A stretch of DNA of 64,000 nucleotides, from the NCBI GenBank assembly GCA_021234155.1, contig JAJEKV010000064.1:1054001-1118000 (forward strand), read 5' to 3'. The notes below the pieces were generated by a model. It made no database searches, was not told the origin of the DNA, and was given only the letters and a program-made list of their open reading frames with translations. The translations under genes were made by a program, and so were the position numbers. Positions 54,982 through 64,000 of this stretch are shown here, piece by piece. Numbering within the stretch: position 1 is the first letter of the stretch; every line of letters begins with the position of its first letter. The DNA is from Isoetes taiwanensis. Lineage: Eukaryota; Streptophyta; Lycopodiopsida; Isoetales; Isoetaceae.

Positions 54982-55230
54982 ATGGATCTACCATTTCGGC
55001 ATGTTTATTCAAGATATAATGCAAAGCACCAAAGAATGAAACATGTTAGAAGATTATCTGTTGCAAAAATGCCACCGGAAAGAAGAGATTTGCAAAGCTC
55101 CAGTAGATCTTTACTTTTGCTACTTCTGCTAAGTAAGAAATCTGGCCCTGCTAGCTCCAAAAATCATGATTTACCTTCTCAATTCCACTGTTATGCTAGT
55201 TGGCGAAGAGGAGGGCGGTCACTGCCCTAG
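54982..55230 (+). CDS. small ORF of unknown function
   Basis: An 82-codon ATG frame, basic at the start (MDLPFRHVYSRYNAKHQRMK), then serine- and leucine-rich (SSSRSLLLLLLLS). No known motif, no neighbouring gene to give context. It may be chance. Confidence 0.2.
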   Translation: MDLPFRHVYSRYNAKHQRMKHVRRLSVAKMPPERRDLQSSSRSLLLLLLLSKKSGPASSKNHDLPSQFHCYASWRRGGRSLP

Positions 55231-55693
55231 CCAACCCAGAATAGCACTATCGTGAGCGTGAGAATTCCCTTCATTTTTATTAAAATTAAATTTGCACCCA
55301 AAACTAAGGTCTAAAGACAATCCACGGGAACTATTCCATTCAACAAGCCATCATAGAGATGAGTCCAAGTATCATCAGATGATTCATGTTCCATAGTTAA
55401 TTCTCTTCATAAAGCTTCCATAGTTAGTTAATCCTTGTGCGAACTATGTTGGAGGTGTTGTCAAACTTTCTCAGGAACTTGCTCTAGCTCTCAGTTTATA
55501 CCTCTTGGTATCAGTTTTTGTTAGTATTATGCCTAACCATCTGATTGGACATGATTCAAAAAATAGATCATCATTAACATTAAACCATGAATCCTAATTA
55601 CAGCAAAGGTATCGATCAAATAGAATCTTTCCATGAAAATTGCACTCTTGGTTTTCTTAAGTTGGAACAAATCGCAGCTGTGATCTCCAGATC

Positions 55694-55835
55694 AGAGTTT
55701 AAATGAAGCACCTCGAGTTTTTTGTAAGTTTAGATTAGCTTTAAAACTAAGAAGAAGCTATGGACCATAGAGCTTAAATGAGTAGCTCAAGTTTTTTGCA
55801 ATTTTAGCTTAGCTTGAAAACTAAAGCAGATCGCT
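55694..55835. repeat. about 75-base tandem duplication
   Basis: GAG(T/C)TTAAATGA followed by CTC(G/A)AGTTTTTTG and TTAGCTT(T/G)AAAACTAA occurs twice. The second copy runs directly into CAGATCGCTTAGGCGATCTA, a GATCGC palindrome. Confidence 0.75.
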
Positions 55836-56395
55836 TAGGCGATCTACTAGACACAATCGCTCATCCAGTTCAAGAAAAGTGCGTGCACGATTGTTTGGAC
55901 CTCATATTGATTTATTTTTATTCTCTTGCAGCTTGCAGATGTCTTCAGAGCTTGCCCTTCTAGTGAAAGTGTGGTGGTAGCTAAGGGTAAGGTTCATGCT
56001 TTCATTAAACATCATAATGCTCCAAAGCACGATTTAATTAATTAGAGAATTTCGGAATTCTCGTTTAGCATGAAATAGGTTCTTGATTGTCTATAAAACA
56101 CCGTGAATGGTTGCAGCAGAGTAAAAGTTGACGTTTTTTCCGCTGTTTATTGGTCACAACCAGCGATGTATCCGACTTTGACATATATAAGGCTATCCCA
56201 AGCTCCTTTGCGAGTAAGAGCGGTCCACAAGAAAGAGTGAAAATACTCAGCAGGATCGCCACGGCGAAGATTTGAAGCTGCCTAGCTGACCCATGGATGT
56301 AATATCACAAGTCCCTTAAGCTCTACACATGTATAAAAAGGAATGAAATTGATAATGAGGATCGCGGCGGCGGACATTTTGAGCTGTTAAGTCTG
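55825..56395. repeat. GATCGC motif group, left side of unknown block
   Basis: AGATCGCTTAGGCGATCT at about 55825, GCAGGATCGCCACGGCGAAG with GATTTGAAGCTG at about 56250, and GAGGATCGCGGCGGCGGACA with TTTTGAGCTG at about 56359. The last two look like diverged copies of one unit about 108 bases apart. Similar motifs crowd 60190-60415. Confidence 0.5.
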
Positions 56396-56600
56396 CCAAT
56401 AATTATAAGAAAGTGCTAGCAAATTTCGTGTCAAGGAAAGTTTAGACAAGAAACAAAACTTAAATAGTAAGAAAACTCAAAGATATGGAGACTTCAAAGC
56501 ATTGTAATTTATATTCCTCAAACATTTCAATGTACATTACTTTGCCATAGGGGCAGAAATTAGTCCATCTGGGTTTCCGATACTGACTCAGGTACAACAC

Positions 56601-57870
56601 CTATCTCGCCACTATCCTATCTATATGTTCCCCGCCCCTTTGTAGAAGATCTGCTGTGTCCATCTCGGTGTAGCTCGTTACATCCGGGATTTCTACGCAT
56701 ATGGCCTTGTGCAAGGACTTGGACATGTGGATCCGTCCTTCAAATCCAAAGATCGATGTCGTGCCCTTCGACAGATGCGCCACTCGCTTTCAATAAGAAG
56801 CGATATCGGTGCATGGAAGAGTTCCGCTTTTTTTCGGTGGAACCTCATGCTCTTGTGTACATGATGGCTCATCCTCTTGAACCGCAGGGTCCACGACCAT
56901 GCCTACGTATTCGAAACTCGACCCTTTGTCAAGAAAGGCATGTAGGCATCAAATTTTTGTTTAAAGCCCCCAATTTTTGAAACACGGGCTCTAGCAATAA
57001 TACCTTTTTCAAGCCTCCGTAAGTCTTTTCGTTTCCCCGCATTCTTTCCTCATAGCTTTTCTCATCCATTTGATCCAAGATTGTATCAATGTTAGATATA
57101 TCCGTTCTCCGGGTAATGTTCAAATTGATCGCGTTAGGATCATTCCACGTGCTCTGCCTTATCCTCTTCAAACTGCCTCCCCAAATACCGCCCACAAGTT
57201 TTTCGAGCTTATCCAGGAAAGCCCTCAGAAATCGGCATACTTTACCCTGGCTTTCAAAAGCAATACTTTTCTTTCCCTGCATTAAGGCGACCGCACGAAG
57301 CGCGACTACCGAGAAGAAATCAAGAGCACAACCATCCTTGGGCACAAGCTTGTCAACTAGGTAGTAAGCATATGATGTTTTCAACCGCACTTCAAAGACG
57401 TGGTCACCTTCCATTCCGACAAACTTGTACCTGGGTTTACCCGTGAAATAAGTCTGCCATTTTTTCTTCATTTTCTCATCAGTATCTTCGTCACCACTGA
57501 CAGGCATTGGTGGCAAGGGCGTGTTCTTTGGTGCAGTGCTCACCTGTGTCAAACGAAGCTCCAGCTCTGGCATTATCGCGTTGACCCTGGAGTCGCTTCT
57601 GTTAATGCACATATGGGTGATGTAATACTGATATTCCTTCACCCTTTTCTTGTTGACCCATCCTGGCTCGTCATATGTGCCTACAGAGATATGGGACCCG
57701 CCTTGAATCTGTTTCTGGCTATACAAGCAATCTGGCAAGTTCACAGACCGCATCAGAATCACAAGGTGATAAATGTTAGCAGTTGTCATGCTGGATATTC
57801 GTGTGAAGAGTTCCATGTATTTTTTGCACGTCCATAATGCAGAGAATCCTCTAATGTCTATGAACACCAT
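56601..57870 (-). pseudogene. unidentified protein, long ORF and downstream continuation
   Basis: The longest frame of the window: 313 codons, 57870-56929, minus. Features by position: VFIDIRGFSALWTCKKYMEL (2-21), LTQVSTAPKNTPLPPMPVSG (Pro-rich, about 107-127), DEDTDEKMKKKWQTYF, RYKFVGMEGDHVFEVRLKTS, LVDKLVPKDGCALDFFSVVA, and a basic, helical C-terminal part. There is no signal peptide or transmembrane helix. Past its stop, coding-like sequence goes on in other frames to 56601 (IHMSKSLHKAICVEIPDVTS). Upstream, NLPVAFLEPIRSILKHEEAI lies one base out of frame at 58052-57875. I do not recognise the family. The frame breaks suggest a decayed larger protein, probably of an element. Confidence 0.5.
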
Positions 57871-58649
57871 AGTTGCGTTCTCGATCTTTTCGAGTGGAGG
57901 TAGGAATCCCTTCCTTTGTTACAAAGATGTACAACATTTTTCTTCTCCTTGATCTTGATAGCCTCTTCGTGTTTCAAAATCGATCTAATGGGTTCTAGAA
58001 ATGCAACGGGCAAATTACCCACAACATGTTCCTTATTATAATTGGCTTTCACGCATTACTCAGATCCGAATCGGATATATCCGTAATCCATTTGCCGCTC
58101 GCGGAAAGCCGGAAATTCGAAACCAACTCTTCCCAAAAAGTGTATTCCTTCCGGGCGCCGCGGGACGCGCGTATGACAAAATCTCTTTCCGCATGAAGCT
58201 CGGCTTCTAATATCAATGGCTATTTCAAATTAAACCCGCCATGATATTCGCTTTGCACCTTAATGTATGTCTTTCCTTCCAAAATCTCATCGAAGCCGAA
58301 AACCTCTCAGATTAGACATGCCTCAAGGTATCTTAACCAGTGTTTTGTTGAAGAAGTCCTTCGAGGGCTTATCGTGAAAATCTCCATGCTCGCCATGCAT
58401 CTTTTGTTGACCCATCCGTTGGCCACTTCCATTAACTTTCTCAACACCCGCCTCCTCCATAAAAATAAATTGCTTCTCGTCCTTTAGCTCCTTCACCTTC
58501 AACGTTGTGGTAGCTATCTCGTGGAAGTCCTCTGTAACAAATGGTCGTGGAATCGCTGCCGCGATGTCTTTGAGCTAAGATAATAAAAATACCTTCCATG
58601 CCGAGGGAGGTGGCGAGTACCAATGGGACCTTGAGGAGGACAACCATAC

Positions 58650-60230
58650 GCTTTATGTTGATGCCGTAGTCTGTTGAAGCTTCTCTAACAATGGCTCTCT
58701 ATATACGATTGTTAGCGATGACTTCATTGCAATCAATGCTCAACTCAATATATTCTCTATCCGTCCAAGTTTCCATTAAGCACTCTTGTTCTTCTCCTCG
58801 CAGAGGCTTTAGCAAACTCCATCTGCTTGTTCCCGTTCTCCAACAAGACAAAGATAGCAGTTTGAGCTGCACATATACCGTGGTTTACCGGATATTATCC
58901 AAAATTTCTTGCCCTTCAAGTCAGCCTCTCCGTACTCCATGTGATCTTTTTCCCGAAATAATGTGCACTTGTAAGTTAGGCAGCCACAAAACCGTAAATC
59001 ATGAACAATAACAATCACCGGTAATGGGGTCGAAGGGGACAACATCGGTACGGTGTGAGCACCTCCTCCAGTAGGATACGCCTTGAAACTCTTCACGAGA
59101 GTCCGCACGCGGGTCGCTTGAACGCATTCGATCGTGAGGTTAGCAGAGCTGGTTCGCAATCGAATATTGAAACCTTCATAAACCCGGTTCACACCAAGCG
59201 GGTAGAACCGCTTTGAATTGTTCAAGCTTCGTGCGCTTTGTTCCGCCAATTTATGCTCTTCTTCGTGATTGAATTTGAGGTCCGCCTTCGCTCGTAGCAA
59301 TAGGAAATGCTAGCCTCTTGGACGATGCAAAGACCGAGACTAAGGGGGTGTTGGAAGAAGAAGGTTCTCAAGCTATCCGAGTATTGAGTTTGCGGAGGTT
59401 GATTCTGAACTTTGGGATGGTAGAATCTTTAGACACAGTAGGGGGAGCACAAATAGCCAGAGGTTGAGCAGGATCTATAATAGCAGATGGTTGGGCAGTG
59501 GAAACAGGCTCCACGGAGAGGGCTCTGGGTTCGGTGGACGCCTCTGCTATAGATATGGGCTTCACATGTTTTTTCTTCGCCTGAGCCCTTAACCAGTTCG
59601 TGTCCATTACAGAAGGCATCTTCTCATTTCGCTTAGCTTTCAGTGCAATGCTAGGTGGTTTCTTATCTCACCAAGAAACCTTTTCTCGCATGTCGAAAGC
59701 CGCACAATATATCCCTATTGCCCGTTATTCCAGACAGAGACAGAGATTCATAGGATCGCTAGCATGCCCCAGATCCTTTCGCACTGGTCGGAACATTCTT
59801 TCCAGTTGCCGGCTTGTTTAACTTGCTAGCTGTCATGAGCGAGGGATCATAGTTTGTCCATTTAAGGACATACTCAATGAACTGCAAATTCTGTGTGTCC
59901 TCTACGCTGCATATAATAGCGCCTTGACATTGTTTTTGTTCCTTCCCACATAGCGATTGCAATTCCTATCTCCCGTATGTCATCGGCTTTCTTGCCACCC
60001 CGAGGAACAAGCAGAGGTCTTTACTACGGCCGCTTTAGCCCCGTGAAATTGCCTCGCGGCAATTTCAATGCACCACTTTCTTTCATTTGAAGGTGTGATG
60101 ATCTTATTGGGCTCAACGTCCGGGCCGCGATACAAATCCGTAGCCGCAAGTAAGAGGTGGGTCATTTCCCTAATGGACAAGTTCTTCCGTAAAATCAACA
60201 GGATCGCGGTCGCGATCTTCAAGAGAGTTT
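58650..60230 (-). pseudogene. unidentified coding block upstream of the 313-codon ORF
   Basis: Minus-strand frames: 60222-59980 contains SIREMTHLLLAATDLYRGPD and NERKWCIEIAARQFHGAKA. About 59900-59760 contains NLQFIEYVLKWTNYDPSLMT. 59619-59368 is Ala/Pro/Ser-rich (an apparent linker). 59300-58809 (163 codons) contains NNSKRFYPLGVNRVYEGFNI, LTIECVQATRVRTLVKSFKA and VIVIVHDLRFCGCL. The parts run in one direction, as in one long protein or two adjacent ones, with stops between. No domain is recognised. A polyprotein of a retroelement or the protein of a large DNA transposon would fit the context; nothing proves either. Confidence 0.4.
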
Positions 60231-60420
60231 ACTTACCATCGCGTCAGCATCCTCATGAGTGATTCGAAGATCGCTACCGCGAGGTCGCGGAGTTTTTGAA
60301 GATCGCATCAGCGATGTTGCTGACCACTAACACGATCGCGCCGCGATGCTACCGAAGACTCGCCAGGATCGCGACGCCGATCCGGCCGAATTTCAAAGCA
60401 GATCGCGCGATCCCGTTGAG
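60190..60420. repeat. GATCGC-rich array, right side of unknown block
   Basis: At least six GATCGC strings stand within about 220 bases, many in short palindromes (GATCGCGGTCGCGATC, GATCGCGCGATC), separated by 15-45 bases. GC content and CpG density are far above the neighbouring sequence. Confidence 0.65.
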
Positions 60421-60719
60421 TTCCGCACCTTCATGACTACAAAGACGGTGCCGTGAAGAGTCTAATTAAACATATCGAAAGAAATCGCTACCACATCTTG
60501 TTGAGCCGAGGGGTTGGAACTAACCTTCTCTCGAGGTGGGCTTTTGGTGCCATGGATCGCCGGGCGCGAGGCTTTCAAAAAACGGGTTGATTTCATCGCT
60601 GTGGAAGGCGCCGAGGAGGCGGCGGGCATTGAATCGCTGGAAGGCGCCGAAATCACCGCTGGGCGAATGAAGTTCGAAGGGATCGCGAATAAATATCGGT
60701 CGGGGAAGCCGGATTAATT

Positions 60720-60990
60720 TAATCCGGCACGTGCGGGACCTGACACGCCATAATTGCCTGCCATTATTACGGCCGGCATTCATAAATACCCACCATTAAT
60801 GCAGCCGCCCGTATTTATGGACGCCCAACAACTTTATTGTAAACGTGGCTTTTTCCGGACAAGAGGTACTTCTGGTCGTGCACCTCCATATTCAAAAAGT
60901 GTACGTAATAAAGGACCTACGGAACCAAAATTAAGACGCCTCTGGAGCGCGGTTGAAGGCCTGAAAGAGACAACTGATTTCAAATTTTAA
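60720..60990. other. possible promoter-like GC/AT transition
   Basis: A mirrored motif pair (TTAATTTAATCCGGCACGTG; CCATTAT...CATTCATAAATACC) precedes a short plus-strand frame of no known family. Evidence for transcription is lacking. Confidence 0.15.
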
Positions 60991-61508
60991 ACCTGAATTT
61001 CGCGCTCGATGAAGAGGGCGGGATTTCCAGTTTGTAATCCAGCAGTGTGTTCTGGAAGGCGCTCGTTCTTCTCGCCTGGCGCCAAGGGGTTTTGGAGCCG
61101 CCGACTGCTTCTTCGTGGTCAGTAGTGCCGATCTTGAAGGCGCCTACTTTAAGCTAACACGGGTACAAAATCCTAATGCCTTCTTCGTCCAGCCACCTAG
61201 AAGTTGTCGAATTCAGGAGAGATTTTCGATTTGTTGTTTATGTATAGGTTATAATAGTGCCTTCACAACCATAACAAGATAGGTTATCGAGGCCCAATTG
61301 AATTGTTTATTTCTCGGACTAATTGATAGTGAGGGAATATCACGGTAACACAATGGTTCTGCTAATGGTTCTGCTAATGGTTCTGCTCCCACCTGTTCAA
61401 TTCACGACAAATCTCCATTTTAATTAACTGACAGGCAATTTTCGTTGTGGAAATAACAGCTGCAATTAATATTCACATAGACATTTGATTTGCGAGACTT
61501 ACTCAAGC

Positions 61509-61952
61509 ATCTATTTTTTGCTCGATTCGACTGTTAGGATGTGCACCGAAAAGAATCGCGATCGCGTTCATCCCGAACATAGCGCTTATATAGCGGCGCG
61601 AGATTACATCAATTAATCGCGATTGCGATCTTGTGGAGGTAAGTCCAAGAGATAAGTGGTTTTAAATGGTTAGTTAGATTAGACAAAGTTTCTAGGTCCA
61701 GCCAGACGCCATCGCGATGTTGACGAAACATCTATTTCTTGCTCGGTTCGACTGCTCAATGTTCCACCGAAAGAATCGCGACTGCATTCATCGGGAGCAT
61801 AGCAGTTATATAGCGACGCGAGATTACATCGAATTAATTGCGATTGCGATCTTGTGGAGGTAAGTCCAAAGAGATAAGTGGTTTTAAAATGGTTAGTTAG
61901 ATTAGACAAAGTTTCTAGGTCCAAAGAGATCGCCATCGCGATGTTGACGAAA
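61509..61952. repeat. 221-base tandem duplication with GATCGC/CGCGAT motifs
   Basis: The block starting ATCTATTT(T/C)TTGCTC at 61509 recurs at 61730. Both copies hold ATATAGCG(G/A)CGCGAGATTAC, GCGATTGCGATCTTGTGGAG, GTAAGTCCAA, TTAGATTAGACAAAGTTTCT and CCATCGCGATGTTGACGAAA. The copies differ by scattered changes, so the duplication is old. Confidence 0.92.
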
Positions 61953-62086
61953 GCGAAGTTGACTTTCTTCGGGATGGAAGCTCTACGCCTTTCTACCGTT
62001 GGGGAAGAAGGTGGCCGAGGGCGAGTGCATAACTTCAAAAATCACCACAACATCCCCGCGCTGCATTTAATTGATAGTAGTTTCTC

Positions 62087-62326
62087 TTGTCGCTGTCTTT
62101 GATGGGCGTATACCACCGCCGTATCCGTAACCGAATTGAACCACCTAGAGGAGGTTTGTTGGTAGCTTCATTCTTTGGTCCAAAAGCGGCGCTCGTAATG
62201 AAATCACTCCAAAGACCCGATGTTAGCACACCACCGGTCGATCAAACGGATAAATTGGCAAGTTCCAAAGAAACTCCCGTGAAGGAAACAAAGGAACCAA
62301 TTGAATTGCGGGGATTTGCAGGATAA
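62087..62326 (+). CDS. small ORF of unknown function
   Basis: A 79-codon frame with GGLLVASFFGPKAALVMKSL and a hydrophilic end rich in Lys, Glu and Thr (SSKETPVKETKEP). Not recognised; it may belong to the element carrying the DUF7869-like frame downstream. Confidence 0.2.
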   Translation: MSLSLMGVYHRRIRNRIEPPRGGLLVASFFGPKAALVMKSLQRPDVSTPPVDQTDKLASSKETPVKETKEPIELRGFAG

Positions 62327-62873
62327 ACTAGTGGAAAAGACATGTGAGTTACCGCGACGAAAGTGCCGCAAACCGCCTTATGCTACAGTGTGTCATCGTT
62401 TTCAGATCCAAACGATGCCGATCCGACATGAAGTTGGGTGAAGCATGGATAGGGGTTTCGTTATGAATTTGTTGCCAATGCCCGAAAGATTTCTATGCTC
62501 ACGCTTGTGCGTAAATGCCACAAATGCATGACTTGGTGAGATGCTCAATAGCATTGGTTCTCGCTGACAAGATTCCGCTTTCTAGCCTAGTTACGGCCGA
62601 AGGAGACCGAGGTCGAGAAGGAAGCTTATGCCGTCAGCCTGAGGTGGAGTAACAAAAAAAGACAACCACATGGTGAATGTGAGGAAGGCGAGAGGACGCC
62701 GACCCCAAAAAAAAAAGAAAGGAAAACCACACCGAAGCTATCTTGCGCCAGTCCTCGATGTGTCGCTTGAAAGAGATGTTGTGCTAATTTCACGCTTAAG
62801 GAGATATCCGCCATGAGGACCTTCTCTTCGAACATGAAAACTTCGAACGTCACGACTTTTTTGCGCATAAAAC

Positions 62874-63696
62874 ATGCTAGATCTTTGTTCAGAGAATGGA
62901 TGTGTGAAAAAGCTAATGCTGAACAACAGGGAAGTCTGTGTGAAGGCATGGCATAGTGCATACGGTATACCAGTTTCTACATTTTACAAATGGAGGAAGC
63001 TTTTTATGGAAGGGCACAGGATTGCGGAGCATGGAAACTCCGGGTCCATGAAGCCAAGGTCTCATACACTGGCCGGAGGTGCTGTGCTATCTATGTACAT
63101 AGATGAAAATGCTGAAACTATGCCACACCGCTCAAAGGTTACGAGTGGGGGAACTAGAGAAAATGTGAAGAGATTACCTTCCATCTTGACTAAAAAGGAC
63201 ATACATCAAGAGGTAGATATAACCGTCCACGAGATGACAGGAAAACATGTTTCTCAATCGTCCTTCTTGTCAACGTGGAAGGATAACCACTCTGAGGTAG
63301 CAATCGCCAAAAGGATAGCATTTTCTAAGTGTAATACCTGTATTGTGATAAAGGAGAAACTTGCCAAGACTAGAGATCCAAGAGAGAGAAGAGAGCTCGC
63401 CGTGGAAAGGAAATCTCACATGATGCCCAACTTTCCCGCAGGGGAGTCTCTACACGGTCGTGGAGAGCTTTGTCTCATCGATCTCCGAAAATGCCTTAAC
63501 CATTATACATGATAAGATGGATAAGAATAAGACGATGGTTCCTCGTCTGGAGAAGCTAGCAAAATCTGTATGGAGGGGTGAACGGTTGAAGGTGAGTCTT
63601 CTCGGTGCTCTCATGCATGGGCATGGTGTAGGTGCTTTGGGCCACTTCTCCATTTGGACCTCCGCCGATGATTCAATTTTCATGTGGGATCTTTAA
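62874..63696 (+). pseudogene. DUF7869-like, putative transposon-derived protein, frameshifted
   Basis: The first frame, 62874-63512, reads VCVKAWHSAYGIPVSTFYKW RKLF, then HGNSGSMKPRSHT and a helical, charged part rich in Lys/Arg (KEKLAKTRDPRERRELAVER). A +1 shift near 63455 gives the second frame, 63460-63696: FVSSISENALTIIHDKMDKN KT, LLGALMHGHGVGALGHFSIW and TSADDSIFMWDL. The D-x-MD-x-x-KT motif, followed by a strand and a His-rich segment, is the start of the DUF7869 domain as I recall it; the family is usually linked to transposon-like genes in non-seed plants. The frame continues with stops toward the window end. Its function is not known. Confidence 0.4.
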
Positions 63697-64000
63697 ATCA
63701 TACCTTGAAAACACTAGAGAATCAATCTGAGGACAACTGGGGTCATTTGAGAAATACGATCATCAAGGAAGTCAGCCGGGTGGAGCAATTATGAACACGG
63801 AAGCCCTTAGGACAAAAATGGTGAATGGCACTAGAAATGATTTTATGCCTCCTATCAAGGGCCCTCGATAATCAAGAAGTTGCCTAGGAGGCTTTACTTG
63901 CAAACTAGACAATTGCTCAGACAAAACAAGAACAGGTATCTTTTTCTCTTACTTGTCATATTTGGTCCGGTTAGGTGTCTTCGATCAAAAGTGCAACTGG

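Follow-up and report, generated by a model that had tools for sequence, protein, structure and literature searches.

Plant transposons are known to code for factors that counter silencing, and DNA methylases occur in some retrotransposons. In the VANDAL/VANC system of Arabidopsis an accessory protein is found with motifs that are concentrated in introns and intergenic parts and differ between related families, and VANC targets evolve by tandem duplication (PMC5735166). DIRS retrotransposons carry Dam-like adenine methylases, dinoflagellate retrotransposons carry cytosine methyltransferases, and DNMT-carrying DNA transposons in marine viruses are mentioned (PMC5890265); fungal DNA transposons carry TET/JBP oxidases (PMC12730594). 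Sola2 elements make 4-bp AT-rich target duplications, have an 888-amino-acid (aa) transposase in one case and can carry Fanzor (PMC3627910). The locus to be compared lies in a stretch of 64,000 nucleotides of Isoetes taiwanensis DNA (contig JAJEKV010000064.1, positions 1,054,001 to 1,118,000), referred to below as the window. It carries a transposon with defined boundaries, target duplications, many genomic copies, a divergent gene pair, an accessory gene under purifying selection and a palindrome specific to its family. We consider it probable that this is a dead copy of a DUF7869 transposon with AAGCAYGATTT termini and a divergent ParB-like/methyltransferase-like gene, whose product, the accessory protein, is predicted to bind the palindromes of its own family in the manner of VANC. 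The features are as follows, by window position.

56025 to 64000, and on to about 66367, no strand assigned: DNA transposon copy, recognized from matching copies, its ends and a TCCA duplication
56025 to 56049, plus strand: left terminal inverted repeat, AAGCACGATTTAATTAATTAGAGAA; its right partner lies beyond the window
56256 to 56267, no strand: palindrome TCGCCACGGCGA, near the left end on the 3' side of the accessory gene; the sole full site of the left cluster within the element
56569 to 60138, minus strand: accessory gene, ParB-like and DNA-methyltransferase-like, three exons matched by tblastn with the L013 exons and spliced protein
56929 to 57918, minus strand: open frame of 329 aa (313 from ATG), the methyltransferase-like core; putative motif IV reads DIRG
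58553 to 58564, no strand: TCGC-N4-GCGA palindrome, inside the intron that separates matched exons two and three
58809 to 59309, minus strand: open frame of 166 aa, the frame-damaged ParB-like part (end of the first matched exon and the second), by tblastn
60204 to 60314, no strand: three palindromes (60204, 60271, 60303) on the upstream side of the accessory gene; less exact copies continue to about 60420
61505 to 61952, plus strand: tandem duplication of about 221 bp between the genes, 88% identity, with palindromes at 61617 and 61930
61978 to 64000, and on to about 64840 past the window, plus strand: degraded transposase gene of the DUF7869 family, by homology to related copies

A sequence-only reading of the window had marked 55694 to 61952 as an unrecognized coding block and candidate new element. 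The block does belong to a DNA transposon, one that is bigger than that interval and offset from it. DNA of the region matches further places in the genome, several of them near full length and many with a common left edge at about 56024/56025. In other copies the right part extends beyond the window end, and addition of the next 7 kb of the contig fixed the right edge at window coordinate 66367 (C1072:1120367). The element is about 10.3 kb (10,343 bp) long, starts at 56025 and overruns the window, with its end at about 66367 and not at 61952. Its termini are AAGCACGATTT, and the inverted repeats at the ends read AAGCACGATTTAATTAATTAGAGAA on the left and AAGCACGATTTCATTAATTGGAGAA on the right. 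Ends were compared in 21 pairs, i.e. the window copy and 20 pairs picked from 40 left and 40 right ends listed. The terminal repeat is identical from AGCACG inward in 19 copies, the remaining two differing near the outer end, and 4-bp direct duplications, read from the printed flanks, flank 20 of the 21 pairs. That of the window copy is TCCA, at 56021-56024 and just beyond 66367; the pair L062/63 has none, and the duplication of L050/51 requires one altered terminal base. The distance between ends is 10.1-10.7 kb in 17 pairs and 4.6, 8.4, 12.6 and 16.2 kb in the rest.

Copies were sought in a genome sequence of 1,658,258,908 bases in 1,110 contigs. Of 3,417 candidates, 122 were scored with the 313-codon open reading frame (ORF) as query, 150 of 1,444 with Pfam N6_N4_Mtase and 150 of 9,907 with DUF7869, and copy numbers are lower bounds because only this part of the candidates was scored. 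The 313-codon ORF has at least 125 matching stretches, many of them with open frames of 450-697 aa. It is therefore multicopy, and the earlier view of a mobile element with motif clusters of its own holds.

Several side observations concern individual copies. The ends (window 56025-56264 and C1072:1120068-1120367) are 99-100% identical between copies, for example those on C1054 and C1061, versus interiors that are indel-rich and mostly 86-97% identical per 500 bases; recombinant elements, selection on the ends or uneven assembly polishing may account for the contrast. A 4.6-kb span, C334:1353756-1358350, has both ends and an ATTT target duplication, and is probably an internally deleted, non-autonomous copy. 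A 199-aa frame adjoining one copy (L003:3-602, plus strand), with Pfam matches below cut-off only, may be part of another, unclassified element. At the Rfam gathering threshold there was no match within window 55000-64000.

The two genes form a divergent pair, the accessory gene on the minus strand and the transposase gene to its right on the plus strand. The coding block that had been taken for the core of the transposon is the accessory, methyltransferase-like gene. Its 313-codon ORF (56929-57870, minus strand) is indeed the longest of the window among ORFs starting with ATG, GTG or TTG, and forms part of the last large exon; the second ORF singled out earlier also proved real, as the open frame 58809-59309. 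Both genes of the window copy contain many stops and frameshifts, so that this copy appears dead and is very unlikely to code now; assembly error could explain some of its indel load.

The nature of the transposase is read from relatives. A related element on C1067 (loci L068 and L013) retains an 849-aa open frame, in which DUF7869 (E 2.3e-42) is the sole match over the cut-off; in a near copy of the window element the same match, at 4.5e-5, falls under the bit cut-off. The C1067 element and a near relative belong to a diverged subfamily with AAGCATG ends (one end changed) and the 4-bp duplications AATT and AAAG. By eye, a C(2)C motif (KCNTC) precedes the presumed first D in the L068:6879-9425 transposase. 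A relative of the transposase was not found among solved structures (best E 0.12). Lanisha/CMCT membership was considered on the basis of the fungal report (PMC12730594) and was not adopted.

What kind of protein does the accessory gene encode? Amino-methyltransferases carry DPPY on the strand ahead of the S-adenosylmethionine (SAM)-binding motif. The conserved part of the accessory protein has, in several copies, a SAM-binding-like stretch, VLDFFSAGTASRVALMQGKKSIAFE, after a strand placed as the DPPY-bearing one is. Putative motif I mostly reads DFFSAGTAS in the window family, and the region is altered in the 329-aa frame of the window copy. Putative motif IV, whose position was assigned by eye, reads D[IMFV][RH]x (DIRG, DFRG, DVRG, DMRS or similar) in 21/21 distinct copies, and the catalytic motif [DNS]PP[YFW] does not occur at that position in any of them. 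These 21 derive from 23 frames at 24 loci (L010 gave none), minus L012, which equals the L005 copy, and L006, which stops short of motif IV. Pfam N6_N4_Mtase matches are below cut-off in 5/14 family members (best 0.032). The RsrI methylase matches at E 0.74 among solved structures, behind several chance hits with better E-values, and is retained as a lead solely because the alignment falls at motif I.

The hits judged to be chance were, among solved structures, a cytochrome c555 trimer (0.013), L7Ae (0.029) and many cytochrome c peroxidases (best 0.024). In Pfam, guanylate cyclase, the only match of the 329-aa ORF (0.078, below cut-off), Cas9_PI (0.0022, in 2/14 members), Fe_dep_repress, perilipin and others were set aside likewise. 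The 166-aa frame has no Pfam match of its own, and NCBIfam gave no match over the cut-off.

Comparison of accessory genes points to clear purifying selection. Seven close pairs have a ratio of nonsynonymous to synonymous divergence (dN/dS) of 0.16-0.41; for the remaining 38, dS has reached saturation and dN is 0.23-0.42. Long open frames were the criterion by which the ten loci were selected, a choice biased towards conserved copies. The accessory protein has probably long been useful to active copies; in the window family it probably no longer transfers methyl groups and acts instead by binding DNA.

The palindromes suggest what such a factor might bind. GATCGC occurs 15 times in the approximately 10.3-kb element, whereas the remaining 60,458 bases examined contain five, and its clusters resolve into the palindrome TCGC-N4-GCGA, with the best form GATCGCGGCCGCGATC. 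The element has seven such sites, where resampled sequence would give 0.1; window 1-56025 has one (0.1 expected), at 55831. The GATCGC clusters of the sequence-only reading are thus real and enriched in the element, but the left one lies partly outside, the site at 55831 being excluded because the element starts at 56025, and a single full site (56256) lies inside. The duplication of about 221 bases ending at 61952 was seen correctly: its units, 61505-61728 and 61726-61952, are 88% identical and share a 72-base ungapped core. The arrangement of subterminal arrays on both sides did not stand. Sites are mostly intergenic and intronic, with one near one end; there is no pair of subterminal arrays, and the terminal repeats are without the palindrome.

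Is the intron site conserved? Both half-sites are exact in 18/21 introns extracted, or 17/20 without L089, which was fetched for its site, and exact half-sites were absent from all 2,000 shuffled versions of one of these introns. Twelve of these introns came from 32 loci (11 exact) and nine (L003, L004, L005, L007, L008, L010, L023, L026 and the window copy) from a looser expression (7 exact); a chance match at L090 was set aside. Genome-wide, the perfect 16-mer occurs 362 times and the reversed control not at all. Some of the listed sites sit beside known copies. As for stray sites, those in 10/10 sampled contigs lay in the same family, which runs counter to the refuting condition set earlier, arrays common genome-wide without the coding block; the sample was the first ten contigs in the list whose sites were not near a listed copy, and about 50 distinct sites were listed of the 362 in total.

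A second family, which is larger than that of the window, allows a comparison. All 150 scored N6_N4_Mtase matches were above the cut-off, and 24 of these listed matches lie within 13 kb of one of the 150 listed DUF7869 matches, 22 of them divergently; shifted controls gave 0, 0, 1, 0 and 2. The elements of this sister family have AACARRRTTGC-type termini and 4-bp duplications in the three loci examined (TTAA, TCAC, CTTA). Their protein has motif I as VLDAFSGSGTT and motif IV as D[LI]PY (ADLPYGF, TDLPYGF, ADIPYGF) in 9/10 distinct covered copies, these being top-scoring matches and so biased to intact ones; the duplicates L071/L085, L081/L086 and L082/L087 were merged, and L078 is the broken one of the ten. 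It matches PF01555 (E 3.6e-19), CcrM over most of the methylase part (E 1.7e-11) and a phage DNA methyltransferase (E 7.6e-27). Towards the N terminus it matches a PHROG ParB (E 0.007), a Pfam ParB match being absent. By motifs IV and I and CcrM homology, the protein has the character of a beta-class DNA methyltransferase. It probably still methylates DNA, judging from its sequence, and this family with an apparently intact enzyme is possibly the more striking of the two findings.

Sister-family palindromes are of a different kind, TATTCNNGAATA with the best form GTGTATTCCGGAATACAC, and are found in runs at about 41-bp spacing and as single sites elsewhere; the perfect 18-mer occurs 2,585 times genome-wide and its control not at all. 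Three elements of the first family have 7, 5 and 6 sites of their own and three loci of the second have 15, 18 and 8, with no foreign site in any of the six (at most 0.1 expected). In these loci the palindromes are family-specific, and those of the window family are situated between genes and within the intron. Profile comparison links the two protein families at motif I (E 7.6e-4, hhalign probability 25%; 23 rows, 22 distinct, versus 10 rows, 7 distinct) and at a GNHS motif of ParB-like type (E 0.001 over 14 columns), whereas five mismatched or reversed controls gave 0.31-0.47. The GNHS profile kept 12 loci in which both ParB-like exons were near full and stop-free.

Relatives of the sister methylase outside the plant are distant. 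A search of phages returned 1,845 records with E up to 1, and among the rows listed the matches are about 25-27% identical, none covering more than 80% of the query; prokaryote genome contigs gave no match. The sole viral-contig match for this query, in L098 (IMGVR_UViG_3300042565_000815), has 57 residues that are 39% identical. Two further observations concern single sister loci. The methylase exon of L086 is 98.6% identical to that of L075 and the ParB-like exon 55%, a pattern for which domain exchange between lineages is possible. At L087:1-1647 (minus strand) a long frame, by eye like a Ty3/gypsy polyprotein, abuts the left end of a sister-family element.

How would the element work? Its family and the target duplications suggest that the transposase would move it by cut-and-paste. 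In the way that ParB binds parS and VANC its motifs, the accessory protein would most likely recognize the palindromes that members of its own family carry. Such binding might keep the element transcribed or control expression of the transposase, i.e. serve anti-silencing or self-regulation. Real methylation is likely only in the sister family, and the protein of the window family would be a presumed catalytically dead binder. The anti-silencing or self-regulatory role is favoured because the anatomy resembles that of VANDAL/VANC, and the 221-bp tandem duplication fits the VANDAL/VANC picture of targets that evolve by tandem duplication.

Several points weigh against this interpretation. The equation of DIRG with DPPY was made by eye. 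Taken directly, the homology of the window-family protein to methyltransferases or ParB is weak. The protein has no Pfam match over the cut-off, its best PHROGs match (E 0.0097) is of unknown function, and scans of viral contigs, prokaryote genomes and phages turned up no relatives of it, the first two being scanned with short peptide patterns that distant relatives can escape. The introns of L005, L008 and L015 (3/21) are without an exact site. Own and foreign sites were counted in the very loci that had supplied the motifs, so that the genome-wide counts and the sampled stray sites constitute the independent part. The hhalign probabilities are low (25% and 21%) and the ParB link spans just 14 columns; shared element anatomy therefore bears much of the argument. 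Finally, the transposase could bind the palindromes instead of the accessory protein.

This last point leads to the likeliest rival, in which it is the transposase of the element that recognizes the palindromes, the methyltransferase-like protein serving some unrelated purpose. Binding to internal repeats is common among transposases, and TnpA binds subterminal repeats in CACTA/Spm. Palindromes are present near the start of the transposase gene as well, and by eye the two families have transposases of different sequence. The sites, however, are not packed at the ends but are located between the genes and within an intron, and the terminal repeats lack them; transposase binding would be compatible with these facts, and we hold this rival to be unlikely.

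Could the protein instead mark its own element, by methylating adenine or cytosine in or near its palindromes, with the mark protecting or de-silencing the element? GATC lies within the best motif of the window family, and the sister protein keeps D[LI]PY (in the biased set described above), FSGSGTT and CcrM-like homology. In the window family, however, the position is D-[IMFV]-[RH] in 21/21 distinct copies; active methylation is therefore unlikely there, and active self-marking is on the whole an unlikely explanation.

Less probable still is a reading in which promoter or host factors of the ordinary kind use the palindromes, with the accessory gene as a passenger that has no silencing role. 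Several palindromes do lie between the divergent genes, but the specificity in six loci, the family membership of all sampled stray sites, the intron location and the purifying selection on the accessory gene speak against this. CACTA/EnSpm elements are defined by CACTA-type termini and a 2-3-bp target duplication. Large size, motif clusters and two genes would suit the CACTA-like transposon with subterminal transposase-binding arrays of the sequence-only reading, but AAGCACG termini, 4-bp duplications in 20/21 end pairs, a DUF7869 transposase and motifs that are not subterminal led to the rejection of CACTA membership, which has almost no probability.

The preferred interpretation, a dead transposon copy with an accessory protein that binds own-family palindromes, can now be set beside the described systems. 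With VANDAL/VANC it shares an accessory transposon protein and short family-specific motifs clustered in the introns and intergenic, non-coding regions of its own family; VANC, on the other hand, is found in MuDR-type Vandal elements, where the arrayed motifs share a single orientation (PMC5735166). Here the protein is ParB/methyltransferase-like, the motifs are palindromic and the transposase is of the DUF7869 type, and anti-silencing would follow by analogy only. With Sola2 there are in common the 4-bp AT-rich target duplications, a similar transposase size and the possibility of an accessory gene, but the accessory gene is a different one, and the likeness concerns the Sola2 description (PMC3627910). 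DIRS and dinoflagellate elements are likewise eukaryotic mobile elements bearing a DNA methyltransferase (PMC5890265), whereas the present case is a land-plant DNA transposon with a beta-class CcrM-like enzyme and a ParB-like part. The fungal TET/JBP transposons also have a DNA base-modification gene on a DNA transposon, thought to help escape silencing, but it oxidizes methylated bases and does not methylate, the hosts are fungi, the superfamilies are others, and matching motif arrays are not described in the available part of the report (PMC12730594). Bacterial and phage CcrM-like N6 methyltransferases resemble the sister family in motifs IV and I, and ParB/parS offers a ParB-like GNHS-type motif and palindromic sites; the window family differs in being without DPPY, and the phage matches of the sister protein are distant. 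No plant DNA transposon that combines a CcrM-like methylase and a ParB-like part with palindrome arrays to match was found in a literature search, most subscription literature being outside its scope.

A broader proposal is put forward tentatively, as a possibility that we consider rather less than even. A large clade of DNA transposons in a land plant may have captured a bacterial or phage-type ParB-methyltransferase gene as a sequence-specific self-recognition system, with palindromes particular to each lineage; one lineage would methylate DNA (in a form other than 5-methylcytosine) and the lineage of the window would be a dead binder, so that an enzyme and a pseudo-enzyme for anti-silencing coexist in one genome. 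The families would offer a natural series from an intact enzyme to one presumed dead, along which the protein may evolve jointly with its DNA target. In gene annotation of lycophytes, the repeats named here could be taken wrongly for methyltransferase genes. With these elements, methylation of adenine or of N4-cytosine by a transposon of a vascular plant would become directly testable.

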